DNA from: Herminiimonas arsenitoxidans
GTDB taxonomy: Bacteria; Pseudomonadota; Gammaproteobacteria; Burkholderiales; Burkholderiaceae_D
Reading direction: 5' to 3'
NCBI RefSeq assembly: GCF_900130075.1
Contig: NZ_LT671418.1
Span: forward strand, 806,001 to 870,000
DNA length: 64,000 nucleotides
Shown piece after piece: positions 1 to 15,951 of this stretch. Numbering within the stretch: position 1 is the stretch's first letter; each line of letters begins with the position of its first letter. A model generated the notes under the pieces. That model ran no database searches. It was not told where the DNA came from and saw only the letters and a list, made by a program, of their open reading frames with translations. Position numbers and translations under genes: made by a program.

Positions 1-361
1 AGAACTTGACGAAGCTGGCGGCGTAGCCAACTTCGCCCAATGCTTCGGCAAGAGGTTTGCCTTGTTCCAGCACCATGGTGTGAGCGATGGCCGGCGCATG
101 CGCTTCGATCAGATCGAACCAGCGCTCCAGCAGTTTGCTGCGCTCTGCTGCCGTCCGTGCTTTCCAGGAAGGCAGTGCCACACGCGCAGCCTCAATAGCT
201 TCGACAGTGTGTGCGGCGGAGGCCATAGGCACGCGTGCCACCAACTCTCCTGTAGCAGGATTGTTCACAGCGATGATCCGACCGTCGCTATGGGACAAGG
301 GACTGCCATTGATGACACCCCACCCGTACTTCTCGGACAGTGAAACAAGATTCAAGCGCAT
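1..361 (-). CDS. NAD-dependent aldehyde dehydrogenase, succinate-semialdehyde type (N-terminal part, runs off window)
   Basis: The reverse strand reads from an ATG at 361 without a stop to the left edge, giving about 120 residues. The sequence has the start of the aldehyde dehydrogenase fold: an INGSP segment, a NPATGE segment, then AAIEAARVALPSWKA-like text and the EQGKPLAEALGEV motif. That combination is typical of the succinate-semialdehyde dehydrogenase (GabD) branch. The catalytic Cys and Glu lie beyond the window. The ATG overlaps the stop of the upstream reductase gene by 10 bases, so the two are one operon and probably translationally coupled. It would oxidise an aldehyde made by the upstream reductase or decarboxylase-like partner; the true substrate cannot be read from this fragment. 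Confidence 0.85.
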   Translation of the reverse strand, partial: MRLNLVSLSEKYGWGVINGSPLSHSDGRIIAVNNPATGELVARVPMASAAHTVEAIEAARVALPSWKARTAAERSKLLERWFDLIEAHAPAIAHTMVLEQGKPLAEALGEVGYAASFVKF

Positions 362-1224
362 GATGACTTGCCAACGAACTTGTAGAGTTCGGTGTGATCT
401 GCCTTGGGTCCCAAGGTCTGCGAAGCGTCGGCTGTCATGGCATTTACCTTCTGCGCCAAGTCCATCGGTAGTTGCATGGACTTGCCCAGCGCTGCTGCAA
501 TACCAACGTCCTTGGATTGCAAGGCCAGCGAGAACCCCGAGTTGAAGGCGTCATTCAGCATGAACTGATGCGCCTTGTTTTCGGTGGTGTTGTTCTTGCC
601 AGTCGAAGCGTTGATGACATCAACAATGGTGTTCGCATCGATGCCGAATGCTGCACCAACGTGAATGGCTTCAGCGGTAGCGATCAGCGCTGCTGCAGAC
701 ACGTAGTTGTTGAGCGCCTTCAAAGCATGGCCGGAGCCAACCGGACCGACATAAGTAATGGCTTTGCCCATCACTTCGAGTATCGGTTTTTGCTGTTCGA
801 AAACAGCCGGGTCGCCACCTACCATGATGGCCAGCGTGCCATTGACGGCTTTCTTCACACCGCCGGAGACGGGTGCGTCGATCAGCGCAATGCCCCGCTC
901 TTGCAAAGAAGCTGCCAACACTCTCGTTTTGATCGGATCAGCCGAGCTCATCTCGATGATGCAGCTGCCCGCTTTTAAATGCGGTGCCAGATCGCTCACC
1001 ACCGCATCGACGATGTCGGAGTTCGGCAACATGGTGATAAGCACATCGCAATCCGCGAACGATGCATTGTTGTTGGCGACCACGGTACCTGAGTGTGAGG
1101 CAGCGAAATTTACTTCGACATCGTGGTTTGCATCTTTCACCACGAGTTGGTGGCCTGCTGCGTGCAGCAGATGGGCCATGGGCGTACCCATCATCCCCAG
1201 GCCAATAATTGCAATGCGACTCAT
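352..1224 (-). CDS. 3-hydroxyisobutyrate dehydrogenase-family NAD(P)-dependent reductase
   Basis: A 290-residue beta-hydroxyacid dehydrogenase. Residues 5-13 carry the Rossmann GLGMMG nucleotide-binding loop, residues 116-122 the DAPVSGG substrate-binding motif, and Lys169 in GHALKALNN is the expected catalytic lysine of this family. Family members interconvert a hydroxyacid and the corresponding semialdehyde (3-hydroxyisobutyrate, tartronate semialdehyde, threonate derivatives); the sequence does not say which. A longer frame begins at TTG 1242, but the ATG at 1224 is preceded by an AAGGGG ribosome site at good spacing, so I chose it. It sits between the carboxymuconolactone-decarboxylase-like gene (14 bases upstream) and the aldehyde dehydrogenase (10-base overlap), an operon that turns a small hydroxyacid or aldehyde into an acid. 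Confidence 0.88.
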   Translation of the reverse strand: MSRIAIIGLGMMGTPMAHLLHAAGHQLVVKDANHDVEVNFAASHSGTVVANNNASFADCDVLITMLPNSDIVDAVVSDLAPHLKAGSCIIEMSSADPIKTRVLAASLQERGIALIDAPVSGGVKKAVNGTLAIMVGGDPAVFEQQKPILEVMGKAITYVGPVGSGHALKALNNYVSAAALIATAEAIHVGAAFGIDANTIVDVINASTGKNNTTENKAHQFMLNDAFNSGFSLALQSKDVGIAAALGKSMQLPMDLAQKVNAMTADASQTLGPKADHTELYKFVGKSSCA

Positions 1225-1238
1225 GTTCGGCCCCTTGC

Positions 1239-1637
1239 TCAAATGTCCATCTCTTTAAACACTTCCGATGCGACACGGAAGGAGTCGATGGCTGCCGGCA
1301 CACCACAGTAGATGGCTGCTTGCAGGAATACTTCCTTCACTTCGTCCTTGGTCAAACCGTTGTTGATGGCGCCGCGTACATGCAGCTTGAGTTCATGTGG
1401 ACGATTGAGTGCTGTGATCATCGCGAGATTGAGGAAAGAACGAGTCTTGCGATCCAGCCCTGGGCGGTTCCACACATCGCCCCAGCAGTATTGGGTGACC
1501 AACTCTTGCATATCGATGTTGAAATCGGTTGCGTTCTTGATCGAAGTATCGACGTACGCGGCACCCAGCACCTCACGGCGGGTAGCCAAACCTTTATCGA
1601 AAAGTTCTTGGTTCTTTGGTGCGTATGGACGTGTCAT
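1239..1637 (-). CDS. Carboxymuconolactone decarboxylase (CMD/AhpD-like) family protein
   Basis: 132 residues matching the gamma-carboxymuconolactone decarboxylase family in length and in the helical core (NRPGLDRKTRSFLNLAM, then ALNRPHELKLHVRGAINNG, then EVKEVFLQAAIYCGVPAA). The true PcaC enzyme acts in protocatechuate breakdown, but no other pca gene is nearby, so this is probably a paralogue serving a different catabolic route with the two dehydrogenases downstream. The start at 1637 has a good AAGGAG-type ribosome site. It is the first gene of the operon and faces the GntR regulator across about 160 bases holding a palindromic operator. Function beyond the family is unknown. Confidence 0.85.
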   Translation of the reverse strand: MTRPYAPKNQELFDKGLATRREVLGAAYVDTSIKNATDFNIDMQELVTQYCWGDVWNRPGLDRKTRSFLNLAMITALNRPHELKLHVRGAINNGLTKDEVKEVFLQAAIYCGVPAAIDSFRVASEVFKEMDI

Positions 1638-1695
1638 GTAAGGCTCCTTGATTGAAATATGAGAATGAATGTTCGCTGCTACGTTTTGGAATATA

Positions 1696-1712
1696 TCAGA
1701 TTGTCTGACAAT
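1696..1712. promoter_or_regulatory. Probable FadR-type GntR operator
   Basis: Two overlapping inverted repeats, TCAGA-TTG-TCTGA (1696-1708) and ATTGT-CTG-ACAAT (1700-1712), lie in the AT-rich interval between the divergent operon and its regulator. The core TTGTCTGACAA fits the TNGTNNNACNA pattern known for FCD-domain GntR proteins. Its position between both starts fits control of the operon and autoregulation. Binding is inferred. Confidence 0.7.
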
Positions 1713-1797
1713 AATACATAATATTATCTACAATTAATCAAACGACTATCTGTTTGTGGGATAATGTTTCCCTGTAAGAATCTAGTGGGATTGCCTA

Positions 1798-2463
1798 ATG
1801 AATCAGATGCTGCGTGTTCCGCGCGAAGAGACTTCCCTGCGTGAGAGAGCCACACAAACCCTGCGCAAAGCCATACTTGATGGGCACTTCGCCCCTGGGC
1901 AAAAGCTCTCCGAGCGGGAGCTTTGTGAAGACTTGGATGTAAGTCGCTCGTGTGTACGCGAGGCGCTGCAACACCTTCAGGCCGAAGGCTTGATCACCAT
2001 TATTCCGCACCGTGGCCCAGAGGTCACCACCATCTCCGCGCAGGAAGTACGCGACATCTACGAGGTACGTGCCAATCTCGAAAGCCTTGCGGGTCGAAAT
2101 TTTGCAAACAATGCCTCACCTGAACAGATCCAGGCATTGAGGGCGAAGTTGACGGAGTTGGCGGAACCGGATGTTGCGGAAGACAGATCAACCATGTTGA
2201 CTGTGAAGAATCAGTTCTACGACATTCTTATCGAGGGCTGCGGCAATCTGGTAGCAGGTCAAATGCTCCAGCAACTCAATAATCGCGTGACGGTGCTAAG
2301 ACGTATTTCCATGTCGCAGCCTGGCCGCTTCGCAAACACGCTTAAAGAGCTTGATGCCATCGTCACTGCCATTGAAAATCGCGATGGCGATACGGCAGCA
2401 CGTCTGTGTGCCGAACACGTACAAAAGGCCGTGGACAATGTGCTGCGTAGCATGCAGGCGTGA
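1798..2463 (+). CDS. GntR-family transcriptional regulator, FCD (FadR-like) subgroup
   Basis: 221 residues. The N-terminal winged helix (about 13-75) has the GntR signature: LRKAILDGHFAPGQKLSERELCE, then VSRSCVREALQHLQAEGLI. The remainder (about 85-215) is an all-helical FCD effector-binding domain with the YEVRANLESLAGR and CAEHVQKAVDN segments. Such proteins usually repress a neighbouring catabolic operon and are released by a carboxylate ligand. It is divergent from the three-gene dehydrogenase operon and the palindrome at 1696-1712 lies between them, so that operon is the obvious target. The ligand is not predictable. Confidence 0.9.
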   Translation: MNQMLRVPREETSLRERATQTLRKAILDGHFAPGQKLSERELCEDLDVSRSCVREALQHLQAEGLITIIPHRGPEVTTISAQEVRDIYEVRANLESLAGRNFANNASPEQIQALRAKLTELAEPDVAEDRSTMLTVKNQFYDILIEGCGNLVAGQMLQQLNNRVTVLRRISMSQPGRFANTLKELDAIVTAIENRDGDTAARLCAEHVQKAVDNVLRSMQA

Positions 2464-2554
2464 ATTATCGAAGCGACGAAAATTTAAGCAATCGCATTTC
2501 AAATTAAGCACCGTCGATTAATGCAATGTCCGCGTTCGATCCATAAAGGACACC

Positions 2555-3156
2555 ATGGATAGCAAGACACTGACCGCCTACGATTTAGATGCAGCGTCTT
2601 ACGCAGACGACTGGCTTGCGCAACCAGCACCTGAAGATATGTATGCGTTGCTTCAGCAGTACTTCTCGCAAGGTCCTACTGCGGATATTGGTTGTGGTGC
2701 TGGGAGAGATACTTCCTGGTTGAATAAGCACGGTTATCCTGCCATCGGATATGACGCTTCTTCTGGTTTATTGAACGAAGCACGCCAACGTTATCCCGAC
2801 CTTACTTTTGCTTCCGCAACCCTGCCCGGCCTGAATGAGCTGGGCACTCAACAGTATCAAAATGTACGTGCGAAACAGTCATCATGCATCTAGAGCCGCA
2901 AGATATACCGGCAGCGACAAAACGTTTGCTCGACATATTGAAAATCGGCGGCATCTTGTACCTTAGCTGGCGTGTCACTCAGGGCACTACACAACGCGAC
3001 AAACACGAACGTCTGTATGCCGCTTTCGATGAAGCATTGGTGTTAGATGCATGCGAAGGCCAAGACATTTTATTCAATCGTAAAGAGACTAGCTTGTCGT
3101 CGGCAAAGACTGTACAGCGCTTAATCGTAAAGAAAATAAAGCGCTGCTCGCTTTAA
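2555..3156 (+). pseudogene. Class I SAM-dependent methyltransferase, split by a one-base frameshift
   Basis: The first frame (2555-2893) encodes the N-terminal half with motif I, ADIGCGAGRD, and the acidic Asp of strand 2 (IGYDAS). It then ends in a junk tail after QQYQNV. From about 2869 the other forward frame continues the family sequence as CETVIMHLEPQDI and runs to 3156, including the LKIGGILYLSWR strand typical of these enzymes. Restoring one base at 2867-2868 (for example GTA-C[T]G-TGC, reading V-L-C) joins the two halves into about 200 residues of normal family length. Both halves look otherwise intact, so this is either a recent pseudogene or a base-calling error. The substrate is unknown. 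Confidence 0.8.
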
Positions 3157-3239
3157 ATTCAAGCATGAGAGTCTGCTTCTGGCCGAAAGGAATACTCAGC
3201 TTTCGACCAAAAGCAAATTAACGATGCAAGACTATTTAC

Positions 3240-5282
3240 TTAGAAACGCACGCGCATGCCAGCGTATGCCGAGCGTCCCGGTTGCGGGAAACCGTAGGCA
3301 GTTGCGTAGTCACGATCAAACAAATTGTCTATGCCAACGTACAATTGCGTCTTCTTGTCGATGTCATAGCTCATACGTGTGTTAACTAGGACATACGAAG
3401 GCAATTCCGCAGAGCGCAGCGTACCGGTACGTGAATAGTAAGTCTGGTCAGTTACATACAGCAAGCTACCAAACCACGACAGCTTATCAGTCAGCGGTTG
3501 CCATGCATCCAGCGTCAGGCGATGACGCGGCAGGTATTGCAATGTGCGCGACTCTGCATTCACCAGATTCTTCGCGCTCAGGTAGGTATAACCTGCGCTG
3601 ATTGTGCCCTTGCCAATTGCTGTGCGCGCCAATACTTCCAGACCGGTGTTACGGAAACGATCCTGATTCTGCTGAATACTGTTGCTGTCCGGCTGGATGA
3701 AATTACGGATCGCAGAATTGAATACTGTTGCATCTACCGTGGTCTGCGTACCCGCTTTCCAGACCACACCGATTTCAGCCGTGGTCGATTCTTCCATCTT
3801 CAGATTAGGATTGCCACGCGAGCTCTCATACAACTGCGTCAGGCTCGGCGCACGCGCCTTGCGTGACAGACCACCTTTGAGACGCCAAGCCGGATCGACG
3901 TCTATATAGCCACTCAAAGCAGCAATCGGAGCCGACTGATCACTGCCACCATCGTCACGACGCTGGCTTACCCAGCCTGCGCCAGCAGTGATGCCGCTGA
4001 TGTCGTTAATCTTGTAGGCGGCCTCAGCACTGAAGGTATCAACATGAGTCTGCTGACTGAAATTGAGCGCACGGATGTTGAAGGTACCGGCACCACCACC
4101 GCCACCTCCGCCGCCCCCACCACCTCCCCCGCCACCGCCGCCACCAGCGGCGACGTCACGGATGCGGCCGTTTTCGCCATAGCTGTCGCGGCGAGTATCT
4201 ACAGCAGCACTCAGCGTCAGGCGATCGGTCGCCAGATGTTCGACTTGCAGGTGATAACCGAGACTGCGGCTGTCTGATGTTTTATCAAAGCCACCACTAA
4301 TCCGGTTGCTTTGCAAAAGCGCATAGTTGGAACCATCGAAACGACGTTCATCCTGACGCAACTGGCTCGCATAAATCCAGCCACGCAAACGGGTGCGATC
4401 AGTAATTGCCCAATCAGCGGAAAGCTGTGCTGACAGTTGTGAAATATTGTCGTAGCGCTCGTAACGCGGCACTTGCGCAAAGGCGTCAGTGCTTGGATAG
4501 ATGCCCGGTGGTTTGCCCTGGCTACCATCGCCGGCATTGATGCCCAGACCTATTTTCAAATCGCGATTGACCTGATAGCCGAAGTTACCGGTGACGGTCA
4601 TGCTATCCAGATCGCTGTTGCGACGTTTGCCACGTGGCTGCTCGGCAGTACCGGCGTAATCGGTGGACAAGCGGGTATCGCCATGTTCCTGATGATCGGC
4701 GGAGATGAACCAGTCCAGCGCACCAGCCTGGCCACCAACACTGGCGCTGACTGCGCGCGATGCATTGGTGCCAAAACGTGCATCAACATTCGCCGTCGTG
4801 TGATCTGCGTTACCGCGACGCGTAATGACGTTGATCACGCCAGCAGTGCCACCTTCACCATAGAGTACGGATGAAGTCGCACTGCGCACCACGATTTCAT
4901 CGATTTGCGTCACAGGTATTAATGCAGGATTGAACTGGCCATCGGCATTCGAGTTAACCGGTATGCCGTTCACCAGCAATTTAATCTGACGTGTGCGTTG
5001 TCCGCGCATGTCGATGCGTGGCGAACCTTCACCGCCGGTGCGGATATTCAAGCCAGGTATCTGTGCCAGTGCTTCGTCCAGCGTACGTGCACCGCGACGC
5101 TCGATATCCTCGGCACTGATGCGCCAGACGGTAGTGGATTTTTCAGCGACGTCAGCTTGCTGGCTACCGGCAACTTCAATCTGGCCCAGTGTGTATGCTT
5201 CGTTATCGGCAAATGCCTGCGTGCCGAAGGCGCAACTAGCTAACCCTGCTATCAACAAGGAATGGCGTGCGGGTTTCTTCAT
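3240..5282 (-). CDS. TonB-dependent outer-membrane receptor with an 18-glycine run
   Basis: 680 residues. A Sec signal peptide ends near AQAFA (about residue 25), followed by a TonB-box-like segment. The plug domain comes next, with DEALAQIPGLNI, RIDMRGQ, LLVNGIPV and SSVLYGEGGTAGVINVITRRG. The beta barrel ends in the canonical C-terminal Phe (GMRVRF). It resembles BtuB/CirA-type receptors. Residues 380-397 (codons 4092-4145) are 18 consecutive glycines written with all four Gly codons, probably in a surface loop. It follows an S-component-like membrane gene in the same orientation, separated by a hairpin and a ModE-box-like palindrome at 5295-5316. The ligand is unknown: a metallophore, corrinoid or metal chelate would fit the family. 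Confidence 0.88.
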   Translation of the reverse strand: MKKPARHSLLIAGLASCAFGTQAFADNEAYTLGQIEVAGSQQADVAEKSTTVWRISAEDIERRGARTLDEALAQIPGLNIRTGGEGSPRIDMRGQRTRQIKLLVNGIPVNSNADGQFNPALIPVTQIDEIVVRSATSSVLYGEGGTAGVINVITRRGNADHTTANVDARFGTNASRAVSASVGGQAGALDWFISADHQEHGDTRLSTDYAGTAEQPRGKRRNSDLDSMTVTGNFGYQVNRDLKIGLGINAGDGSQGKPPGIYPSTDAFAQVPRYERYDNISQLSAQLSADWAITDRTRLRGWIYASQLRQDERRFDGSNYALLQSNRISGGFDKTSDSRSLGYHLQVEHLATDRLTLSAAVDTRRDSYGENGRIRDVAAGGGGGGGGGGGGGGGGGGAGTFNIRALNFSQQTHVDTFSAEAAYKINDISGITAGAGWVSQRRDDGGSDQSAPIAALSGYIDVDPAWRLKGGLSRKARAPSLTQLYESSRGNPNLKMEESTTAEIGVVWKAGTQTTVDATVFNSAIRNFIQPDSNSIQQNQDRFRNTGLEVLARTAIGKGTISAGYTYLSAKNLVNAESRTLQYLPRHRLTLDAWQPLTDKLSWFGSLLYVTDQTYYSRTGTLRSAELPSYVLVNTRMSYDIDKKTQLYVGIDNLFDRDYATAYGFPQPGRSAYAGMRVRF

Positions 5283-5294
5283 AATGACTTTCTG

Positions 5295-5316
5295 GTTATA
5301 GCTGGTTGAATATAAC
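5295..5316 (-). promoter_or_regulatory. ModE-box-like palindrome upstream of the TonB receptor
   Basis: GTTATA, ten bases, TATAAC, with the right arm extending to TATAACGAT, ends 13 bases before the receptor start. From memory, the E. coli modA operator has the same layout (GTTATA-N10-CATAAC, with an ATCGTTATA-type half-site). The ModE-like gene at 7131-7571 makes this assignment attractive. It is a motif match only. Confidence 0.55.
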
Positions 5317-5321
5317 GATAA

Positions 5322-5349
5322 ATAAATACCAGCTCTGAAAAGGCTGGTA
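5322..5349 (-). terminator. Hairpin with T-rich tail between membrane protein and receptor genes
   Basis: TACCAGC (5327-5333) pairs with GCTGGTA (5343-5349) around a 9-base loop. On the reverse strand the stem is followed by TTTATTT. It lies after the membrane-protein stop (5372) and before the receptor start, so it may end or attenuate the upstream transcript, leaving the receptor under its own promoter. Confidence 0.55.
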
Positions 5350-5371
5350 CCGGAACTACTGGAAAAACAGG

Positions 5372-6001
5372 TTAATGACGACGCTTGCGGCTGCTACCCA
5401 AATAAAGCAGCAATCCCAGGAAGGCACCCACAGCACCGAACAGCGCATGGGTAGAAAGCGGATAGCCGATACCGTTGATGAGTGAACCGAACGCTATCTG
5501 GCCGGCACTCATGCTGTTGAAAATATTACGTGTCAATGGCGCGATCATATGTGTCAGGGCACCAACGACAGGCAGCCAGATGAAATAAGGCAGTAAGGAG
5601 CGTATGCGTGCATCAGGACGGAAAACCAGTGCATCGACGATGCAGCCCTGCAGGAAGTAAGTCAGCATCTGCGCAGATTTTCCATCCAGCCCGATGCCAC
5701 CCGCATAAATACAAGCGGTGGTTGCGGCACCAAGGCCGACCACCATGCCCGCTGCTCCGCGGTTGGAAAGCAAACGTGCCAGTATCAACAGCGTAAACCA
5801 TTCCATGCCGTGATAGCCAGGCATGCGCAGTGGAATACGGAACGATTGATGCAGCACCGCCGCCAGTGCACCAACGCCCAGCAAAAGTATCAGTTCAAGT
5901 GCGAGCGGATATTTATCAGCCTGCTCGCGGGTACCCGGCCAGCTAAAAGCGCTTGACGTAGTTTTTGGAAGCTGCACGCCATCCGTTGAAATCGTTTTCA
6001 T
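5372..6001 (-). CDS. Small integral membrane protein, possibly an ECF-type S component
   Basis: 209 residues with five or six hydrophobic segments: about 33-54, then a segment starting WFTLLILARLL, the glycine-rich GMVVGLGAATTACIYAGG, YFLQGCIVDALVF, FIWLPVVGALTHM and a final FGAVGAFLGLLLYL. A conserved-looking RIPLRMPGYHGMEW motif precedes the second segment. The size and glycine-rich helices resemble the substrate-binding S components of energy-coupling-factor transporters, but I cannot place it firmly and no EcfA/EcfT genes are in the window. The start at 6001 has a GGAG ribosome site seven bases upstream and overlaps the preceding gene by 59 bases, so translation is probably coupled. Context suggests an inner-membrane import step paired with the TonB receptor. 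Confidence 0.6.
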   Translation of the reverse strand: MKTISTDGVQLPKTTSSAFSWPGTREQADKYPLALELILLLGVGALAAVLHQSFRIPLRMPGYHGMEWFTLLILARLLSNRGAAGMVVGLGAATTACIYAGGIGLDGKSAQMLTYFLQGCIVDALVFRPDARIRSLLPYFIWLPVVGALTHMIAPLTRNIFNSMSAGQIAFGSLINGIGYPLSTHALFGAVGAFLGLLLYLGSSRKRRH

Positions 6002-6767
6002 CTGCTTTCTCCACTAATAAAGTTGCTTGCCCCTGCAAGAAAACCGCGCGCGGCCATTCACCCAGATCGATGCGATCCTCTGCGGCGATCACTACCTCAG
6101 GTCCCTGCTTGCTTTGTACGGTCACACCCGTTGCCTGCTCAAGTGCACCTGCCGTCCATAGTTCGCAAGACAGACCGCGCAGTTGCTTGAGCCAGAGGAA
6201 GCGACCATCACATCCACTTGCATTCAGTCCCACCGCCGCGAGCGCACCTATCACGCCGCCATGCGTTCCAGTCAGCCCGGCCATGTCTATCTCATATCCG
6301 ACGATCAGCTTGCGTGCGTCGGCTTGCTCCAGCACCTGCTCCTTGGCTGCACGTCCGAACTGCTGGACGACCTCAGGCAAATCCTTGCGCTGTACCAGCA
6401 CGGTGCCGGCATCCGAACCTTCTGCGCTTTCTTCCAGCAGGTAGCGACAGGTGTAATCAAAGACCGTTTGACGATCGACTATCGATTGCAGAACCAGACA
6501 GGCCGAGCTGTTGTGCGAGGTATAAGGAATGCGCGGATCAACCAGCAACTGATGACGCGTGATGGCCTTGACCTCGGCGATGCCAGCCTCTGCCATGCGC
6601 AGGGCCAACTGCCGCGCGAGAAAACCGGTGCCGCGCGATGTCAGGTTGTCGGTGTCATCGATGGCCAGCAGCCAATCGTTCTCATGCGGCGGCGACCAGC
6701 GTTTGCCTATCGCATCCAGCGCGCGCCAATGCGCTTCATTGATCGGGTCTGCGCCGTATGCTTTCAT
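5943..6767 (-). CDS. TiaS-like protein with IDDTD nucleotide-binding motif
   Basis: 274 residues. LLAIDDTDNLTSRGTGF (about 33-49) closely resembles the IDDTDS motif of the archaeal tRNA(Ile2) agmatinylcytidine synthetase TiaS, a kinase-like ATP-dependent enzyme. A second conserved region has GYEIDMAGLTGTHGGVIGALAAVGL. The OB-fold and zinc-ribbon parts of TiaS are absent, and bacteria decode AUA with TilS, so a tRNA role is doubtful. The open frame extends upstream to 6893, but the ATG at 6767 has an AGG ribosome site and lies just after a palindromic operator, so I chose it. It overlaps the downstream membrane gene by 59 bases. Function unknown; an ATP-dependent step on an imported or exported small molecule is one guess. 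Confidence 0.6.
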   Translation of the reverse strand: MKAYGADPINEAHWRALDAIGKRWSPPHENDWLLAIDDTDNLTSRGTGFLARQLALRMAEAGIAEVKAITRHQLLVDPRIPYTSHNSSACLVLQSIVDRQTVFDYTCRYLLEESAEGSDAGTVLVQRKDLPEVVQQFGRAAKEQVLEQADARKLIVGYEIDMAGLTGTHGGVIGALAAVGLNASGCDGRFLWLKQLRGLSCELWTAGALEQATGVTVQSKQGPEVVIAAEDRIDLGEWPRAVFLQGQATLLVEKADENDFNGWRAASKNYVKRF

Positions 6768-6787
6768 CTTTGGTTTACCTGAAAAAG

Positions 6788-6814
6788 TCGATATGGTACA
6801 TAACGACATATCGA
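6788..6814. promoter_or_regulatory. Perfect palindrome upstream of the TiaS-like gene, ModE-box-like
   Basis: TCGATATG (6788-6795) and CATATCGA (6807-6814) are exact inverted repeats 11 bases apart, ending 21 bases before the start of the TiaS-like gene. The arms fit the ATCGNTAT half-site I recall for ModE boxes, although the spacing is one base longer than at 5295-5316. It is a likely operator for the nearby ModE-like regulator. Confidence 0.55.
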
Positions 6815-7130
6815 TTGCGCAATACCCAAACGAAAATAACGCTACGTAACTGTTGTCTATACGCAATAGCGTGCGCGGAAAATCTCTACGCAATTGGTGG
6901 TGGCGACGGACTAAAAGCGATGCTGTAGCGACTTATTGCCGCGGCCGGCCAAACTGGGAACAGCTATGCCGATCAACAGAGGGCTGAGTTTTGGAAAGAC
7001 GAGTTCATCTTGAGAATCACGAGAGCGCTGAACAAAGGCAATCGTCTGTTCAGCGGATTCTGTGTTGAGTATGGTGGGATATGAGCGATACAGCTGTCAG
7101 GTGGAATAGCGCGCTTTGCACTGCGCAAAG
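6815..7130. other. Intergenic stretch between TiaS-like and ModE-like genes
   Basis: No convincing gene. On the reverse strand an open frame from about 7099 to a stop at 6911 reads like protein (an SAEQTIAFVQRSRD segment, then PSLAGRG) but has no start codon or ribosome site. It may be a gene remnant or a repeated intergenic sequence. The promoter of the TiaS-like operon should lie at the left end. Confidence 0.4.
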
Positions 7131-7571
7131 TTAATCTTTTTCCGCTTCTGCCATCGAAGCCAGTTGCACCAATCGCGCCAGCTCTATCGATGCAGCCGTG
7201 TTAATACGCGCCTCCAAAGCTGAATAGGTAGAAAGTATGTCGTCCCCGAGTTCAGTAAGACGAGCCCCTCCCCCTCCTTTTCCGCCTTTGACTGTTGCAA
7301 CGACTGGTTTGCCAAATCCCTGATTCAAGGATTCAATAACGAGCCATGCATTTTTATATTGCATACCAAGGGCACGCGCCGCTGCGGATATCGAATTCAA
7401 CTCAGAGATTTTTCTAAGGAGCTCAATTTTTCCTGGGCCGATAGAAATTGAATTACCTATAAAAATACCGGGGCGAATAATCGCAACTTCGTCCCTACGC
7501 TTACGACCAGGCTTTGCATCCGATACATCAGCGATGTCTGATTTGTTTGCCTGCTTTAGCTTGGATTGCAT
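7131..7571 (-). CDS. ModE-family winged-helix regulator without a molybdate-binding domain
   Basis: 146 residues. After a basic, disordered N-terminus of about 40 residues comes the ModE/LysR-type winged helix. Its features are GPGKIELLRKISELNSISAAARALGM, then YKNAWLVIESLNQGF and the glycine-rich wing KGGKGGGGARLTELG, the ModE hallmark. The C-terminal Mop/TOBE domains that bind molybdate in E. coli ModE are missing, so it is a DNA-binding-only form and must sense its signal differently or act constitutively. It is in the same orientation as the TiaS-like/membrane/TonB genes, and two ModE-box-like palindromes (6788-6814 and 5295-5316) precede those units, which are its probable targets. Confidence 0.85.
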   Translation of the reverse strand: MQSKLKQANKSDIADVSDAKPGRKRRDEVAIIRPGIFIGNSISIGPGKIELLRKISELNSISAAARALGMQYKNAWLVIESLNQGFGKPVVATVKGGKGGGGARLTELGDDILSTYSALEARINTAASIELARLVQLASMAEAEKD

Positions 7572-8004
7572 TTTTTAATATGAGGTTTTCAGAGCGTCCA
7601 TTGTATTTGCACTTGATTAGGAATGGAAATGACTATCGGCCTATGGAAACAACTTTTAACCTAGCGCTGACATCCACTTTCGACTCAAAGCGGATATTCG
7701 AAATAATTTAAGTGACCTCTTCAGATTGCAAATTTATCATCACATCTTTAATATATCCGCACTCCATAATCATGGCCCTGCTGTTGGCCGGTTGCAGATA
7801 TTCCAGAGCTGTCACACACAGAAGTTACCGAAAGTCTGGTTAAGTCAAATCTGCGCTCAGCCCAAGCTTCTTCAGCACGAAAGCGCCGCGGCCAGCCACT
7901 GATGGCGAGTCATCTTCGGCGAAGCGGCGAACTAAAACGAGGACTGGAATTCCGGGCATATTCATTTCCCTGGGTAAAAATTTAAAGGTTCCCGCGAGGC
8001 TGCG
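7572..8004. other. Intergenic stretch, mostly empty
   Basis: No supported gene. A 39-codon reverse-strand frame at 7840-7959 (ending AFVLKKLGLSADLT) lacks a good ribosome site. It shares a short SxAGRG-coding patch with the open frame at 6911-7099, so both may be copies of a repeated intergenic sequence. A promoter for the GGDEF gene should lie near the right end. Confidence 0.35.
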
Positions 8005-9270
8005 GTGGAAGTGTTCGCTCCCGATGACATGCTTCCCGACTATTTATGCAAGCTGTCCAGGGGGCTGCGTTTCAGACGCTTATTTTTGAGAGTACAGCTA
8101 GTGCAAAAAATCGACGTCTTTTCCCTGTTTGTCGCCATGACACTCAACTTATCCATCATGGCAGTGGCGCTGCCTTATTTCATGGGCCGGGTGAATCGTG
8201 CCGCGCGGTACGCGCAAACCGGGGTCGTGCTGCAAACAGCTGGCTGGATTTGCCTGTTTTCGTCGAGCACCTTCGAACGAGGTGGATGGGCCGACCATCT
8301 GCTATCGACTCTCGCGATGGGCTGTGTTTCGAGTGGCATGGTGTTCAACGCCATGGCTTTTCAAATATGGTGCGGCCGCAAGGTAAGCGTGCGCGCACCG
8401 ATCGCCATTGCCGTATTAATGACTGTCGGCTACAGCATCGGTTTTTCCGATTATCCGTTCCGGGTGGGGTGGGCCAACGCCCTACTGGCCTTGCAGATCG
8501 CCACGGTAGTGGTTGAGCTATGTCGGCCGCCGCAGGTGGCAGTCGGACGCTGGCGCTGGCTCTTGGCCATTTGTCTCACCATACAAATGATAGTGTTGGC
8601 CTGCCGGGCCGTGCTTGGTGCGTTTTACACCGCCGAGTTCCCGAATTTCTTTGGACCGTATCTGGTCAACCAAGTGTTTGCATTGTCGTCGAATTCGATG
8701 ATGGTGATGTCGGTGGTGGCCATCCTCCTGGCTCACCGCGACGAAGCGGCCCGCGAACTGGAACGGCTGGCCATGCTGGACGGCCTGACTGGTGCATTGA
8801 ATCGTCGCGCCTGGCTGCTACAGTCCGGCATCGACCTCGCTAGCAGCGTGCGTTACCGGCAGCCCATTGGCCTGTTGATGCTTGATCTCGACTATTTTAA
8901 GCAAATCAACGACACGCACGGCCATGCCGTTGGCGACCACGCACTCCAACTTTTCGTGACCGGATTACGAGCAGTCAGCCGCGCCGGTGACGTGTTCTGC
9001 CGTTATGGCGGTGAGGAATTCTGTGTCCTGCTCAAATGCGCCGACTTTGCCTCGGTGATGGCGTACGATCAACGCATGCGCCAGTGGCTGGCAGAGCACT
9101 CCCCCCAAGAGTTGGGATTCAAGCTTTCTTATAGCGCCGGCATTGCCATGCGCGTGCACGAGGGCGACACCATCGACACCATGCTACAACGAGCCGACGT
9201 AGCCCTGTACGAAGCTAAGTCGCAAGGACGTGGCTGCACGCTTGCCAGCTCGATGCGGCTCAGCGCCTAA
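8005..9270 (+). CDS. Membrane-bound diguanylate cyclase (GGDEF)
   Basis: 421 residues from a GTG start preceded by GAGG; the exact start is uncertain and an ATG at 8029 is possible. The N-terminal half has several hydrophobic helices (from FSLFVAMTLNLSIMAVALPYF to SMMVMSVVAILLAHR). The GGDEF domain (about 250-415) has DGLTGALNRRA, the metal-binding LDLDYFKQINDTHGH and an intact GGEEF at 335-339. RAGD five residues upstream is a full allosteric I-site. It should make cyclic di-GMP from two GTP with product inhibition. It stands alone between unrelated genes. The signal sensed by the membrane domain is unknown. Confidence 0.9.
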   Translation: MEVFAPDDMLPDYLCKLSRGLRFRRLFLRVQLVQKIDVFSLFVAMTLNLSIMAVALPYFMGRVNRAARYAQTGVVLQTAGWICLFSSSTFERGGWADHLLSTLAMGCVSSGMVFNAMAFQIWCGRKVSVRAPIAIAVLMTVGYSIGFSDYPFRVGWANALLALQIATVVVELCRPPQVAVGRWRWLLAICLTIQMIVLACRAVLGAFYTAEFPNFFGPYLVNQVFALSSNSMMVMSVVAILLAHRDEAARELERLAMLDGLTGALNRRAWLLQSGIDLASSVRYRQPIGLLMLDLDYFKQINDTHGHAVGDHALQLFVTGLRAVSRAGDVFCRYGGEEFCVLLKCADFASVMAYDQRMRQWLAEHSPQELGFKLSYSAGIAMRVHEGDTIDTMLQRADVALYEAKSQGRGCTLASSMRLSA

Positions 9271-9333
9271 GTCGTCCACCTGTGCTATCCCTAACAGCAT
9301 AGCGAGACAGGTGATATATACCCAAAGGCGCGG

Positions 9334-9924
9334 TCAGCCCTTGCTCTTCTCTATCTTCATTTTGCGCAGCAGCTTGGCCAAACCTGCGCCATGCACCAGA
9401 CGCATCTTGTTCTCTACCGCAAACTGCATCGCATTCTGGGTGAAATCGCCAGCAGTGATATAGAAGCAATCGTGCGCGGCCTTGGCTTCTTTCGCTTTGC
9501 ACAAATCACGCAAAGGCTCGACGCCGGTACTTGCTGCCTTCCAGCGTTTGCAACTCACAAGCGCAGTACGTCCCTCGCTCGTGATGGAGAAATCAGCTTC
9601 TGGCAAATCGATGCGCTTGACGACAAAGCCATCTTTTTCCAAAGCCTTTTCGATCTCCACCGAAAAATCGCGCCATGACATCGCACGTACAGCAGTCAAT
9701 ATTTCTGCCACACGTGCATTACTCGGCTTACCCCACTGGCGCCACAAAGCCATCATGCTCACGATCAGGAAAGGCATACCGGCAAACACGCCATAACCCA
9801 CGTACTTGGGCGGCATAATGGCCACTGCAATCAAGGCAATTGCAAGCGCTATCGCAGCACTAACCCACCACGGCGAGCGCAGCAGCAAGGCAAAGATCGA
9901 ATTTTGAGCCATTTTGAATTTCAC
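9334..9924 (-). CDS. Membrane-anchored Mrr-type restriction endonuclease-fold protein
   Basis: 196 residues. Two hydrophobic segments (about 15-35 and 42-62) are followed by a soluble domain with the Mrr-catalytic layout: WRDFSVEIEKALEKDGFVV, then ADFSI (metal-binding Asp), then ALVSCKRWKA (the SxK form of the D-QxK nuclease motif) and FYITAGDFTQNAM. The GTG start at 9924 has a GAGGTGA ribosome site at good spacing, better than the in-frame ATG at 9912. No methyltransferase or specificity gene is near, so classical restriction is unlikely; membrane-tethered Mrr-fold proteins may act in DNA repair or defence. Confidence 0.75.
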   Translation of the reverse strand: MKFKMAQNSIFALLLRSPWWVSAAIALAIALIAVAIMPPKYVGYGVFAGMPFLIVSMMALWRQWGKPSNARVAEILTAVRAMSWRDFSVEIEKALEKDGFVVKRIDLPEADFSITSEGRTALVSCKRWKAASTGVEPLRDLCKAKEAKAAHDCFYITAGDFTQNAMQFAVENKMRLVHGAGLAKLLRKMKIEKSKG

Positions 9925-10118
9925 ACGTCACCTCATAGTTTTCTTTGGCACGCATAATAACGCAGTTCGATTGTGCGACCGAGATTCGCTCCTTCGTTAC
10001 ACAAGACAATCTTGTTGATACATCATCTTCGAATCTCTCTGGCCAACTAACAGGAGCATGAACAGAAACCGGTTCCGATGTAAGCTTGAGCCTTGCTTAA
10101 GCTGATCGGTACCCTTGC

Positions 10119-10685
10119 ATGAAAAATGACATTGCTCCCCTCACCTACAAAGACCGTATTCACCAGGAACTGGACAAACTCGGCATCTCGTTGGAATTGA
10201 TTGCGCAGAAGCAATTGCCTTTTTATGCAGAAGCGGAGGAGCTGACCATCGCCGAGACAGATGCCGATGGCCGCGAATACCAGATGACGCCAGCCACCGC
10301 GCAGGCGTGGGCCGCGATGAAGCAAGCTGCTGCGCAAGATGGTGTCGTACTGGAAGTGGTTTCTGCTTTTCGCTCCATTGAACGTCAGATAGCGATCATT
10401 CAATACAAGCTGGATCGCTACATGCCAATGGAAAAAATCCTGACGCTGAGCGCGCCACCCGGCTATAGCGAACATCACACCGGCCGCGCCATTGATATCA
10501 ATACACCGGGCTGTATGGCGACCGAAGAAGAGTTTCAGGATACTGAAGCATTCCGCTGGTTAAGCACCCATGCGAATCGCTTCGGCTTTACCTTGTCTTA
10601 CCCACGCGATAACACGTTGGGTTTCATTTACGAACCTTGGCATTGGTGTTTTCAGCCGTCTGAAACAAATACACAAACTGAATAA
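10119..10685 (+). CDS. VanY/DdcY-family D-Ala-D-Ala carboxypeptidase-like protein
   Basis: 188 residues. The M15 metallopeptidase motifs are complete: SEHHTGRAIDI supplies the first zinc His and Asp, and EPWHW near residue 176 supplies the catalytic Glu and last His. VVSAFRSIERQ is the usual VanY strand. These enzymes trim the terminal D-alanine from peptidoglycan stem peptides. No signal peptide is visible, so it is cytoplasmic or exported in an unrecognised way. No vancomycin-type regulator is nearby; a cell-wall recycling role is more likely than resistance. Confidence 0.85.
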   Translation: MKNDIAPLTYKDRIHQELDKLGISLELIAQKQLPFYAEAEELTIAETDADGREYQMTPATAQAWAAMKQAAAQDGVVLEVVSAFRSIERQIAIIQYKLDRYMPMEKILTLSAPPGYSEHHTGRAIDINTPGCMATEEEFQDTEAFRWLSTHANRFGFTLSYPRDNTLGFIYEPWHWCFQPSETNTQTE

Positions 10686-10710
10686 ATCAATTCCGCTCGC
10701 ATCCATATCT

Positions 10711-11592
10711 CTACATCTTCTGCTGCAAAAACTCCAGGAAGCAACTGATGCGTCGTGAGAGCTGCGTATTGCGGTAGTAGACCGCGTGGATGGGACGACG
10801 ATAACCGGTATAGGCGTTTTCCAGCACGCGCACCAAACGACCGGCAGCAATATCTTCTTTCGTCATGAAGTCAGACAGGCAAACGATGCCTTGTCCGGCC
10901 ACAGCCAACGCACGCAAGGTCTCACCGCTGGACGCAAACATCACAGGACTGACAGTAAAAGTTTCACCGCCCTCATGTCGTAACGGCCAGGTATTACCCA
11001 GTTCGTATTGCAGGAAGCCCAAGGTTTGATGCGCAGCCAGATCTTCCGGTTTCTGTGGCACACCGTGTTGCTTAAGATAAGCAGGACTGGCCAGAATCGC
11101 CATCGCACTTGGGCGCAATGGGCGGGCATGCAACGTGGAGTCAGCTAACTCACCGACACGGATAGCAATATCGGTACGATGCTCCAATAGATCGGCGATC
11201 TGATCATTGCTCGTCAGCTCCAGCGTGATCTCCGGATACAAGGTGCGGAACTCGCCTACATGCGGCACTATCGCATGCAGAATAAATGGCGATGCCGCAT
11301 CGATACGCAAACGCCCGCTCGGCCTTTGGCGACGCACGCGTATGGATTCCTCCGCCTCATCCATCGCGGCCAGGATGGTCCTCGCCTGTTTCAGCAATAG
11401 CTGACCTTCATCAGTCAGCTCCATTCGGCGCGTGGTGCGCGTCAGCAAGGTGGTCGCCAGTTTTTCTTCCAAACGTGACAAAGCACGGCTCACTGCCGAC
11501 GTGGTTTGCCCCAGATGCTGAGCCGCAGCGCCCAAAGTGCCGCTGTCGATGACAGCGACAAAGGTCTTCAAATCGTCTGAATTAATGTCCAT
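10711..11592 (-). CDS. LysR-family transcriptional regulator
   Basis: 293 residues. The N-terminal winged helix has DLKTFVAVIDSGTLGAAAQHLGQTTSAVSRALSRLEEKLATTLLTRTTRRMELTDEG, here read in parts. The effector domain follows from about residue 90. It is divergent from the NAD-dependent epimerase-like gene at 11755, and an inverted repeat with a T-N11-A core lies between (11673-11692), so that gene and itself are the likely targets. The inducer is unknown. Confidence 0.9.
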   Translation of the reverse strand: MDINSDDLKTFVAVIDSGTLGAAAQHLGQTTSAVSRALSRLEEKLATTLLTRTTRRMELTDEGQLLLKQARTILAAMDEAEESIRVRRQRPSGRLRIDAASPFILHAIVPHVGEFRTLYPEITLELTSNDQIADLLEHRTDIAIRVGELADSTLHARPLRPSAMAILASPAYLKQHGVPQKPEDLAAHQTLGFLQYELGNTWPLRHEGGETFTVSPVMFASSGETLRALAVAGQGIVCLSDFMTKEDIAAGRLVRVLENAYTGYRRPIHAVYYRNTQLSRRISCFLEFLQQKM

Positions 11593-11672
11593 TGTTGAAT
11601 TTAAAGCAAATATTATTTGATAGTACAGCTATTTTTCTCAACAATAAATGCCTGCATAGTGTGGTCATCTGC

Positions 11673-11692
11673 TTTCAAGCACATGTTTGAAA
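11673..11692. promoter_or_regulatory. Candidate LysR operator
   Basis: TTTCAA, eight bases, TTGAAA forms a 20-base inverted repeat between the LysR gene and the divergent epimerase gene, matching the T-N11-A pattern of LysR boxes. Motif match only. Confidence 0.5.
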
Positions 11693-11754
11693 CCGTATCG
11701 GAACATCATCAACTTGCGGTGAATGCAGCAGTCAACCAATAAAAAGGACACATC

Positions 11755-12654
11755 ATGAAGATATTCGTTACAGGCGCAGCAGGCTATATCGGCGGTTCAG
11801 TCGCAGCACGTTTGCTGAAGGAAGGTCATACAGTGCGCGGTCTGGTACGCAAGCAGGACCAAGCAGATCGCATCAAACAACTCGGCATAGAACCAGTCAT
11901 CGGCACCTTGGAAGATGCTGAACTCCTGGCGCGTGAAGCCAAGCAAGCCGATGCAGTCATCAATGCCGCCAGCTCCGATCATCGCGCCTCGGTGGAAGCG
12001 ATGCTGGATGCGCTGGCCGGCTCCGGCAAAGCGTTTATTCATACCAGTGGCTCCAGCGTGGTCGGCGACGATGCACGCGGCGAATGGAAGTCAGACAAGG
12101 TCTATGCGGAAGACACACCAGTTACCGTCGTACCAGAAAAAGCAGCCCGTGCCTCGCTAGACAAACTGATCCGTGATGCAGCACAACGCGGCGTACGTTC
12201 CGTCATTCTGTGCAATACGATGATCTACGGCACCGGCCTCGGCGCCAGTGCGAACAGCGTGCAGATCCCGCCACTGGTCGCACAAGCGCAGAAGAGCGGC
12301 ATCGCACGTTACGTCGGACAAGGCGTCAACGTCTGGTCCAACGTCCATATCAAGGATGTGGTCGAGCTGTATCTGCTCGCATTGAAAAACGCACCAGCCG
12401 GTTCATTCTATTTTGTAGAAAACGGCGAAGCATCGTATGCCGACATCGTCACTGCCATCGCCAAACGTTTGAATCTGGGCGCGCCGCAATCATGGCCAGT
12501 GGACGAAGCCATCAAAGAATGGGGTTTCGGTCATGCTGTGTATTCCTTCGGCTCCAACAGCCGCGTCACCGCTGATTTGGCGCGCAAGGAATTGGGTTGG
12601 AAGCCGACGCATACTTCGGTCTTCGACTGGATCACAAACGATATGAAGGTTTAA
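11755..12654 (+). CDS. NAD-dependent epimerase/dehydratase-family protein (extended/atypical SDR)
   Basis: 299 residues. The N-terminus has the GAAGYIG dinucleotide-binding loop (about 7-13) of extended short-chain dehydrogenases, and the family layout continues with INAAS, HTSGSSVVGD and VILCNTMIYGTG. The usual YxxxK pair is not evident near the SGSS strand, so it may be an atypical SDR (NmrA-like or a sugar/aldehyde reductase). It is divergent from a LysR regulator that probably controls it. The start at 11755 follows an AAAGGA ribosome site. The substrate is unknown. Confidence 0.82.
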   Translation: MKIFVTGAAGYIGGSVAARLLKEGHTVRGLVRKQDQADRIKQLGIEPVIGTLEDAELLAREAKQADAVINAASSDHRASVEAMLDALAGSGKAFIHTSGSSVVGDDARGEWKSDKVYAEDTPVTVVPEKAARASLDKLIRDAAQRGVRSVILCNTMIYGTGLGASANSVQIPPLVAQAQKSGIARYVGQGVNVWSNVHIKDVVELYLLALKNAPAGSFYFVENGEASYADIVTAIAKRLNLGAPQSWPVDEAIKEWGFGHAVYSFGSNSRVTADLARKELGWKPTHTSVFDWITNDMKV

Positions 12655-12671
12655 GCAAAGCAGCTTGCAGG

Positions 12672-13577
12672 CTAATCCTTCAATTGCTCCAAGCGCTGAC
12701 GTAAAAAATCACGCAAGCTGACCACGGCAGGCGACAGCATCAGACGATGCGCGCATACCAGGTTCAGCGGAGCAAGCTCGCCCTGATAGTCGACCAACGC
12801 GGCTATCAGGCGACCTTTCTTTAAATCCTGGCTAATATCCAGTCGCGATTTATACGCCAATCCATTCCCCGCAATCGCCCAACGCCGCACCAGATCGCCA
12901 TCGTCGCTGACTCTATCGCCGTGCACGGTCACTGCCTCCATCTTCTTGTTGCGATGAAAAGACCAGCGTTCATGTACCGTTTCTCCCAACACAAAACGCA
13001 AACAGTTATGCGCCTGCAGGTCAGCGAGTTTTTTCGGAGCTGCATGCTTCTTGAAATAATTCGGCGACGCACACAAGACACGACGATTGTCCGGTGCCAA
13101 CGGCAAAGCCACCATGCCGGAATCTTCCGGTTCGCCATAACGTATTGCTACATCGATAGTCTGTCGGTACAGATCCGCCAAGCGATCACTGATGCGTATG
13201 CGGAATCGAATGCCGGGATGCAATGTCTGAAATTCATCCAGCCACGGCAACATCACATTGCGCCCCAGATCCGATGGGATAGATAAATTCAAATCACCAC
13301 TAATCGATTGCGTATCACGCGCCACGCTAGCTGCGCCCTCTTCCAATGCCAGCAGCACCTCGCGTGCATGCACCAGATAACGTTCGCCATCTGTCGTCAG
13401 ACGCAGGCTACGTGTCGAGCGCACAAACAGGCGCGCACCCAATGCCGTCTCCAAACGTTTGAGCGCAGCACTCGCAGCAGCAGGTGCCATATCCAATTCA
13501 CGCGCGGCAGCAGACAAGCCGCCGCAATCGGCGGCGCGGACAAACAACATCAAATCCTCGATACGCGGTATTTTCAT
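12672..13577 (-). CDS. LysR-family transcriptional regulator
   Basis: 301 residues. The N-terminal helix-turn-helix has LMLFVRAADCGGLSAAARELDMAPAAASAALKRLE, and the effector-binding domain begins near residue 90 (SGDLNLSIPSDLGRN). It belongs to the group usually placed beside an oxidoreductase it controls. It is divergent from the zinc-type quinone reductase-like gene at 13701, with nested inverted repeats between. The ligand is unknown. Confidence 0.9.
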   Translation of the reverse strand: MKIPRIEDLMLFVRAADCGGLSAAARELDMAPAAASAALKRLETALGARLFVRSTRSLRLTTDGERYLVHAREVLLALEEGAASVARDTQSISGDLNLSIPSDLGRNVMLPWLDEFQTLHPGIRFRIRISDRLADLYRQTIDVAIRYGEPEDSGMVALPLAPDNRRVLCASPNYFKKHAAPKKLADLQAHNCLRFVLGETVHERWSFHRNKKMEAVTVHGDRVSDDGDLVRRWAIAGNGLAYKSRLDISQDLKKGRLIAALVDYQGELAPLNLVCAHRLMLSPAVVSLRDFLRQRLEQLKD

Positions 13578-13584
13578 TTTATTT

Positions 13585-13617
13585 TTGAAAGTGATAGTTG
13601 ATTCAACGTATTTTCAA
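13585..13617. promoter_or_regulatory. Nested inverted repeats between LysR and oxidoreductase genes
   Basis: Outer arms TTGAAA (13585-13590) and TTTCAA (13612-13617) enclose a perfect GTTGA-T-TCAAC palindrome (13597-13607). This is the expected place for the LysR operator; binding is inferred. Confidence 0.45.
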
Positions 13618-13700
13618 TAAAGAGAATATAGCGGAAACTGCACGCATAGTGCTGACAAGTCAGAAGTCGCCAGCCAACCATTTCAAAAAGGAAGATTCAA

Positions 13701-14705: not shown

Positions 14706-14753
14706 AGAAATTTTAAGAAATGAAAAAAGATCCGCATCGATCTTCGTCTTCAT

Positions 14754-14779
14754 AAAAAGATAGAACGATCTGTCTTTTT
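14754..14779 (+). terminator. Hairpin terminator
   Basis: AAAAAGATAGA pairs with TCTGTCTTTTT around ACGA (one T-G pair), ending in a T run, 48 bases after the oxidoreductase stop. Confidence 0.6.
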
Positions 14780-14807
14780 CGAGCGATTTTAAAGTATCAA
14801 AAAAACA

Positions 14808-14837
14808 AGCATCCGCTAGCTACGGATGCTTTTTTTA
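14808..14837 (+). terminator. Rho-independent terminator
   Basis: AGCATCCG (14808-14815) and CGGATGCT (14823-14830) form a perfect 8-bp stem with a 7-base loop, followed by a T run from 14831. It is a second terminator after the oxidoreductase gene. Confidence 0.8.
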
Positions 14838-15251
14838 CGCCATTTACGCACGTATTTTTCGCTAAATAATTCATCAATAAAATCTAAATTTTCTTTCGAA
14901 AATTTCTTCTTTTTTTACTCTGAAAAATTCTATTTCTACTTATCGAACTGCCTATTGATATAGCAGTCTGTACACAAGAGAAATATTCGCATCATCCTCC
15001 TTTTCTTCAATAAAAAAGCTGCCAAAAACCGCCATGCATGGCTGTCTGAAGTAGACAAGGTTTTGTCGTAAAGAAAAAAGTTGCGCGACCTATTATCAAT
15101 CCAATCCAAATGAAACCAGACAAGCGCTGGCGCAAATGGATTAACCCGACTGACAGATATCGGAATCACTTTTTTGATGATCTCTGTCAGCCGGGACCAT
15201 ACGAACGAGACATCAAGGTACTGACACCCACCATATTCAGGAGAATCAAAA
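14838..15251. other. AT-rich intergenic stretch
   Basis: No supported gene. The only sizeable frame (reverse, 14936-15169) has no family features or ribosome site. The right end must hold the promoter of the Gly-rich protein gene, whose ATG is preceded by AGGAGAA. Confidence 0.5.
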
Positions 15252-15854: not shown

Positions 15855-15951
15855 TCGTTACGCAACCGACTACTGCTAAGGCAATCCGAAAGACAGGGGG
15901 AGAGCAATCTCTCTCCCTGAATTTCAAGAAACATAATGTGATGGAGTCGCC

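Follow-up and report, generated by a model that had tools for sequence, protein, structure and literature searches.

A conserved bacterial gene set joining a TonB-dependent receptor, an S-component-like membrane protein and a TiaS-like protein is associated with molybdenum, tungsten and putative ModE boxes

What might a bacterium import through a locus that joins a ModE-type regulator and a TonB-dependent receptor to a relative of the archaeal enzyme TiaS? We addressed this question for positions 3240-7571 of a 64,000-nucleotide stretch of Herminiimonas arsenitoxidans DNA (GCF_900130075.1, contig NZ_LT671418.1, positions 806,001 to 870,000; hereafter the window), taken from a host genome of 3.78 Mb in a single contig. 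A preliminary description, made from the sequence alone, had placed four same-strand genes here, and our checks confirmed them as described, all on the minus strand. They encode a TonB-dependent receptor of 680 amino acids (aa; 3240-5282; PF07715, 2.5e-22; PF00593, 1.5e-30), a six-helix membrane protein of 209 aa that resembles S-components of energy-coupling factor (ECF) transporters (5372-6001), a TiaS-like IDDTD protein of 273 aa predicted to be an ATP-dependent kinase related to the TiaS kinase domain (5943-6764), and a ModE-like winged-helix regulator of 146 aa without Mop (molybdate-binding) domains (7131-7571; TIGR00637). The TiaS-like frame shares 59 nt (5943-6001) with the membrane frame. 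The set is real and conserved over several phyla.

The evidence for conservation came from the best 80 of 562 TiaS-like relatives found in a genome scan, with flanks totalling 1.18 Mb and record titles naming Proteobacteria, Bacteroidetes, Chloroflexi, cyanobacteria, Acidobacteria and others (individual loci are cited by L numbers and genomes by G numbers). Linkage was counted with profile models, which correct for TiaS-like genes overlooked by greedy open reading frame (ORF) picks. The membrane gene lay directly downstream of the TiaS-like gene at 74 of the 80 loci, so that the loss of linkage that the preliminary description had named as evidence against itself was not observed. The aligned frames overlapped by 31-58 nt in 71 of the 74 adjacent pairs; these figures may slightly exceed the actual overlaps, since the membrane profile possibly begins a few codons ahead of the genuine start. 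Homologues of the window's receptor stood at 46 of the 80 loci, compared with none of 40 control stretches, which were taken from carrier genomes, had lengths of at most 16 kb and mostly represented contig starts. The receptor accompanied the TiaS-like/membrane pair in many Proteobacteria and Bacteroidota, with a lipoprotein-like gene inserted between the membrane gene and the receptor at many Bacteroidota loci; no receptor homologue was found at Chloroflexota loci, many of which had tungstate-type ABC genes. Among 149 genomes sampled from one Bacteroidales order, 24 had TiaS-like matches and 22 had membrane-gene matches, one of the latter being a weak fragment and the other 21 all falling in TiaS-like carriers. 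Distribution among relatives of the host was patchy, the system being carried by 4 of 145 genomes of the family and 4 of 369 of the class (host genome in both counts). The closest named relatives among the matches listed were Oxalicibacterium species, with TiaS-like protein identities of 80 and 69%.

Two observations concern individual members of this locus set. L013 comes from a record titled as a Klebsiella pneumoniae metagenome-assembled genome, yet both the locus and its TiaS-like protein look like those of gammaproteobacteria from the environment; the record may be mislabelled or wrongly binned. Chloroflexota loci L014, L020, L023, L034, L059, L062 and others have lipoprotein-like genes beside the TiaS-like/membrane pair, in one form encoding about 490 aa with an Oxidored_molyb domain and in another encoding 150 aa with no Pfam match and no conserved cysteine beyond the leader; these proteins are possibly surface binding proteins.

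Two exact palindromes lie in the locus, each preceding one of the two transcription units, as the preliminary description had proposed. Box 1, TCGATATG-N11-CATATCGA, occupies 6788-6814. The ORF list opens the TiaS-like frame at a TTG at 6893; because homologues begin near the ATG at 6764, we placed box 1 23 nt upstream of the gene at that ATG. Box 2, GGTTATA-N10-TATAACG (5294-5317; exact palindrome 5295-5316), lies in the gap between the membrane gene, whose end is about 55 nt away, and the receptor, whose ATG is 12 nt downstream. With at most one mismatch, the 5295-5316 pattern occurred once in the window, compared with 0.02 expected; with at most three, the 6788-6814 pattern occurred twice, compared with 0.30 expected, 6788-6814 itself being exact and the sole exact match to box 1 in the genome. 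The palindromes go beyond chance because they are conserved in relatives. Exact boxes with a spacer of 11 were present at the TiaS-like start in Oxalicibacterium faecigallinarum (L005) and O. solurbis (L006), with no box found before the receptor in either; L010, L011, L015, L016 and L030 were boxed at both positions, the first box of L030 carrying two mismatches; and at L004, L007, L008, L009, L013, L017 and L018 boxes were not found or only weak.

From these loci we derived the motif CGNTATR-N10-YATANCG, which box 2 fits with one mismatch and box 1, at its own spacer, with none. When CGNTATR-N-YATANCG was sought at spacers of 4-19 across the 80 loci, 15 matches had a spacer of 10, two a spacer of 11 and one another spacer, compared with none at spacers 10 and 11 for the backwards motif; 0.52 Mb of control sequence gave one match, with a spacer of 18. 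The motif was derived from the same loci after the window boxes had been seen, and the spacer comparison therefore serves as the control. Twelve of the 17 strict boxes marked the start of a TiaS-like, ModE-like, lipoprotein or receptor gene: four were 20-119 nt before the TiaS-like profile match (L005, L006, L016, L084), seven were 43-63 nt past the membrane gene, at the start of the lipoprotein or receptor unit (L010, L026, L029, L030, L045, L070, L073), and one preceded a ModE-like gene by 15 nt (L045). The remaining five (L039, L041, L065, L067, L078) lay 629-915 nt before the TiaS-like gene, beside a divergent gene. Six of the 17 fell within a greedy ORF, 27-231 nt past its first possible start. 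At L045, a one-mismatch box also overlapped the first possible start of a frame for aldehyde ferredoxin oxidoreductase (AOR). The divergent gene near the five Bacteroidota boxes encodes about 545 aa (cluster c16) and is possibly a further regulon member in Bacteroidota.

In the host genome, the box 1 pattern with at most three mismatches occurred at 28 places, compared with nine for the backwards control. Of those inspected, one lies just upstream of the full-length modE-modABC and another separates a receptor/ModA-like unit from a second ModE-like gene without Mop domains, each box having two mismatches to the derived motif. The latter region (C1:2472914-2476614; L106 4915-8615) contains a second receptor (TIGR01783, 265 bits, above cut-off), a ModA-like gene downstream and the divergent Mop-less ModE-like gene, with the ModE-type box between, and is a candidate for another ModE-controlled outer-membrane unit. 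A sigma-70 promoter scan gave three matches, compared with 4.6 expected.

The regulator gave 86 bits with TIGR00637 (E = 1.5e-24), under the cut-off of 98.5, and the host's full-length ModE gave a nearby 89.3 bits. No Mop domain was matched in the 146-aa protein, whereas the host's full-length ModE, encoded elsewhere, matched TIGR00638. We aligned the Mop-less regulator with this ModE and with the ModE-like neighbours of L010, L029, L030, L045 and L065. Kazakov et al. (2013) reportedly treated tungstate-responsive regulators of this Mop-less kind from sulfate reducers. As far as the part of PMC545781 considered goes, ModE proteins of sulfate reducers can likewise consist of the DNA-binding domain alone, and the E. 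coli-type consensus is ATCGNTATATA-N6-TATATANCGAT, which the CGNTAT...ATANCG boxes here resemble; by contrast, Desulfovibrio sites differ (consensus CGGTCACG-N14), and no receptor/S-component/TiaS-like set is described there for the sulfate-reducer regulators. The resemblance of the palindromes to the ModE box, noted in the preliminary description, thus withstood phylogenetic footprinting, in which the spacer-10/11 motif was conserved, and both are well supported as conserved, putative ModE boxes. Although related boxes stand at the host's own modE-modABC, the set here differs from the ModE regulon: it encodes no molybdate ABC transporter, its regulator lacks Mop domains, and its predicted targets are an outer-membrane receptor, an S-component-like protein and a kinase-like protein.

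The gene set was also found among genes for molybdenum and tungsten (Mo/W) metabolism. Any of seven Mo/W markers occurred at 45 of the 80 loci, compared with 1 of the 40 control stretches (Fisher 6e-10); we assigned the MoaC, MoaD, MoaE, FdhD and permease neighbours by inspecting their sequences, and these include the MoaC seed of the marker count. TupA-type binding proteins were present at 28 of the 80 loci and WtpA at nine; a TupA-type neighbour scored 232 bits, under its cut-off of 400, and a WtpA neighbour 288 bits, over its cut-off of 242.75. AOR and ModE-type regulators were also among the neighbours, as were regulators with a PBP domain whose best NCBIfam match, under cut-off, was a molybdopterin biosynthesis protein. 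A homologue of molybdenum storage protein lay beside or near the TiaS-like gene in L012 (904-1731) and also in L020, L027 and L046 (2ogx_B, E = 3.7e-76). Three alignments used in this work each comprised the window sequence together with a selection of those available, numbering 24 of 120, 57 of 62 and 55 of 72.

Co-occurrence across genomes pointed the same way. AOR was present in 38 of 50 chosen carriers (50 of the 80 loci, thinned by eye). In the Bacteroidales sample, it was present in 24 of 24 carriers compared with 37 of 125 other genomes (Fisher 1.8e-11, a p-value inflated by shared ancestry), and in 17 of 17 compared with 39 of 127 without the weak G608 and G629 and five genomes from our own list. 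In the class sample, AOR was present in three of four carriers compared with 49 of 365 others, the exception being the host genome. We rejected AOR as an obligate client of the system, as it is lacking in 12 of the 50 carriers and in 13 of 13 genomes of the genus, the host included. The host genome does encode modE-modABC, a formate dehydrogenase operon that includes an FdhD-like gene (identified from its sequence), and one isolated TupA-like gene. TupA-like genes do not track the system inside the genus, being present in 10 of 13 genomes and absent from carrier G099. Compensation for lost molybdenum cofactor synthesis was likewise rejected, since MoaC was present in 49 of the 50 carriers. The association of the gene set with Mo/W is well supported. 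The neighbours and the co-occurrence strengthened the earlier proposal of a metal-oxyanion uptake regulon and shifted it towards tungsten, the substrate itself still being a suggestion.

The TiaS-like protein has the IDDTD kinase domain with Thr18, although its scores were low against both TiaS_TCKD (20.3 bits, cut-off 27) and the full-length TiaS family NF040849 (29 bits, cut-off 600). TiaS, the archaeal tRNA-Ile2 agmatinylcytidine synthetase, has about 420 residues, compared with 273 aa here, and profile similarity is confined to about the first 150, the match stopping at residue 151 in 4rvz and at 171 in 3au7, where residue numbers are higher by 20. Structure alignment to TiaS extends as far as residue 405, with only 151 residues paired. 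In its own reaction, TiaS activates the carbonyl of a base. The protein here is bacterial and stands in a Mo/W context. A role in tRNA modification was weakened, as only the kinase-domain part matches and bacteria use TilS for the tRNA position that TiaS modifies in archaea. The best NCBIfam relative was methanogenesis marker protein 11 (TIGR03280, 40.7 bits, E = 1.5e-10), yet the score was far under the cut-off of 255.8; this protein of unknown function comes from methanogens, which use W/Mo enzymes. The bacterial branch is large, with at least 6,290 matches among 8,000 scored candidates, mostly unnamed. The present gene set gives this branch of the TiaS kinase domain, together with the unnamed membrane family, a first functional context (Mo/W), and may bear on methanogenesis marker 11.

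The membrane protein had no Pfam or NCBIfam match above cut-off. Its resemblance to ECF S-components is less firmly supported than the TiaS-like fold. An EcfT/CbiQ-type partner was not found in the host genome (G000) and was absent from 22 of 30 chosen carriers, host included; solitary S-components exist.

Both plug and barrel domains (PF07715, PF00593) are present in the receptor. The preliminary description had named clustering of the receptor with a known ligand class, for example corrinoids, under a different regulator as evidence against itself, but no ligand-class cut-off was reached among the 25 best NCBIfam matches; the BtuB-type TIGR01779 gave 155 bits (cut-off 599.7). There was no Rfam match in window positions 1-16000, and hence no cobalamin riboswitch there. 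These results spoke against a B12 receptor. The system also differs in regulator and neighbours from B12 uptake by BtuB and the solitary S-component BtuM.

After residues GRIRDV, a predicted loop of the receptor contains 18 consecutive glycines (residues 380-397; 4092-4145, minus strand). The tract mixes GGT, GGC, GGG and GGA codons, which argues against DNA slippage as its sole cause; the codons are more regular in L005 and L030. Runs of 11-35 glycines occurred in 12 of 53 receptor ORFs of the loci (window included, window copies and loci fetched twice left out), and a run of at least ten is therefore not a fixed feature of the receptor. In eight of these 12, the run stood just after the IRDV motif, and several loci shared its location (L005, L006, L007, L009, L018, L019, L050). 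Among 101 homologues found with the part before the tract, runs of at least six glycines were present in nine of the 29 nearest and none of the 72 others (Fisher 5e-6), and runs of at least ten in only two of the 29. In the Bacteroidota receptor ORFs listed, the longest run was at most three. One possible meaning of the loop is anion binding. The receptor of L069 (7911-10484, minus strand) has 35 glycines in a row at another place along the chain, a location that suggests repeated origin. At the contig ends of P0241 and L019, the receptor sequences break off within the glycine run, so the tract may break assemblies and be under-counted.

Starting from the computational support for the gene set, boxes, Mo/W association and folds, we infer repression, transport direction, ligand identity and kinase activity. 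The set is probably switched on under Mo/W scarcity and probably imports something that Mo/W enzymes need. We give about an even chance to one form of this proposal, an uptake route made of the receptor, a solitary S-component and a trapping kinase and serving an organic, Mo/W-linked ligand. ModE-family regulators would bind at the boxes, which precede the start codons by 12-23 nt, and shut the genes down when Mo/W is plentiful. Under scarcity, the receptor would capture the ligand and TonB would drive it into the periplasm; the S-component-like protein would take the ligand through the inner membrane, either whole or as its organic part; and the TiaS-like kinase would spend ATP on phosphorylating it, for trapping or for activation towards W/Mo cofactor building. 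A single import route is the simplest model because the receptor is present where an outer membrane exists and the membrane/TiaS-like pair is constant. The ligand may be a metal chelate, a pterin cofactor or another compound. As MoaC in 49 of 50 carriers implies that de novo cofactor synthesis appears present, the route would supplement synthesis and not replace it.

Other explanations compete with this route. It is a real if minor possibility that the receptor brings in tungstate or molybdate in free, polymeric or chelated form, with cell entry via TupABC, WtpABC or ModABC, and that the S-component-like protein and kinase do a linked but separate job such as chelator recycling. The TupA-type and WtpA proteins counted above favour this idea, as do Chloroflexota pairs joined to TupA- or WtpA-type transporter genes (permeases named by eye), and the poly-glycine loop would present many backbone NH groups to an oxyanion. 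However, TupA or WtpA stood in the flanks of only three of 24 Bacteroidota-titled loci, and the constant partner of the TiaS-like gene is the membrane gene, not an ABC importer. We think it rather unlikely that the kinase and membrane protein instead work together inside the cell to mature the cofactor by modifying tungsto- or molybdopterin, with the receptor only sharing their regulation. Such a pair would fit the receptor-less Chloroflexota loci, the moaC-like and moaE-like genes (by eye) abutting the pair in L011, L015 and L016, where a PF01967 match fits the L011 position, and TiaS chemistry at a base carbonyl, but the receptor has its own putative ModE box and adjoins the pair in Proteobacteria and Bacteroidota, and S-component-like folds are transport folds. 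Finally, a ligand unrelated to Mo/W (a corrinoid, an iron chelate or another vitamin), with the ModE-like gene an accidental neighbour, seems highly improbable. Although the receptor's top family scores are BtuB-like and siderophore-like, its best PDB match is a colicin I receptor, and several of its homologues among the matches listed are labelled cobalamin or B12 receptors at source, the missed cut-offs among the 25 best NCBIfam matches, the lack of a riboswitch match in window positions 1-16000, the boxes and the Mo/W co-occurrence over several phyla all weigh against it.

A further reading would be salvage of the Mo/W pterin cofactor, in which the receptor and solitary S-component import extracellular, perhaps dephosphorylated, cofactor and the TiaS-like kinase restores the phosphate; we regard it as quite doubtful. 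If it were true, TiaS, methanogenesis marker 11 and the TiaS-like protein would belong to a single family of kinases whose substrates are base- or pterin-like rings, and the poly-glycine loop would represent a novel type of element for binding oxyanions or the cofactor.

TupABC and WtpABC cross the inner membrane only; their genes neighbour the same gene pair in Chloroflexota and in some Proteobacteria and Bacteroidota, whereas the set here further includes a receptor in the outer membrane and a kinase-like protein. Mod, Tup and Wtp, importers of tungstate and molybdate, are described as ABC transporters in the parts considered of PMC13328260, PMC13197769, PMC9246946 and PMC12226641. These sources respectively treat the classification of tungsten oxidoreductases by gene neighbourhoods, tungsten cofactor maturation, a tungsten-dependent archaeal lineage, and Tup genes with, separately, an iron-related receptor; a term search of the main text of the first three returned neither TiaS nor TonB. 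A paper on marine TonB-dependent transporters names tungstate once in the text considered, as an ABC substrate (PMC3400609). No outer-membrane route for tungsten was found in the tungsten papers searched for TonB. For molybdate, PMC11734730, citing others, reports in the part considered that Pseudomonas aeruginosa delivers the anion with the help of a secreted ModA and of IcmP, a protein of the outer membrane; a molybdate step at the outer membrane therefore has a precedent. Both systems involve the outer membrane, but that route uses type VI-secreted ModA, and the same text names no TiaS-like or S-component-like gene. The authors of the preliminary description knew of no system with this gene set, and we found none described among the open-access papers listed, judged by titles and abstract starts, with subscription papers mostly outside the search. 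The set may offer a concrete candidate outer-membrane entry route for tungsten-linked nutrients over several phyla, and its promoter boxes make the regulation testable at once.

Next to the locus, at 2555-3156 on the plus strand of the window, a gene resembling SAM-methyltransferases appears split into two overlapping ORFs and is likely a decayed gene.

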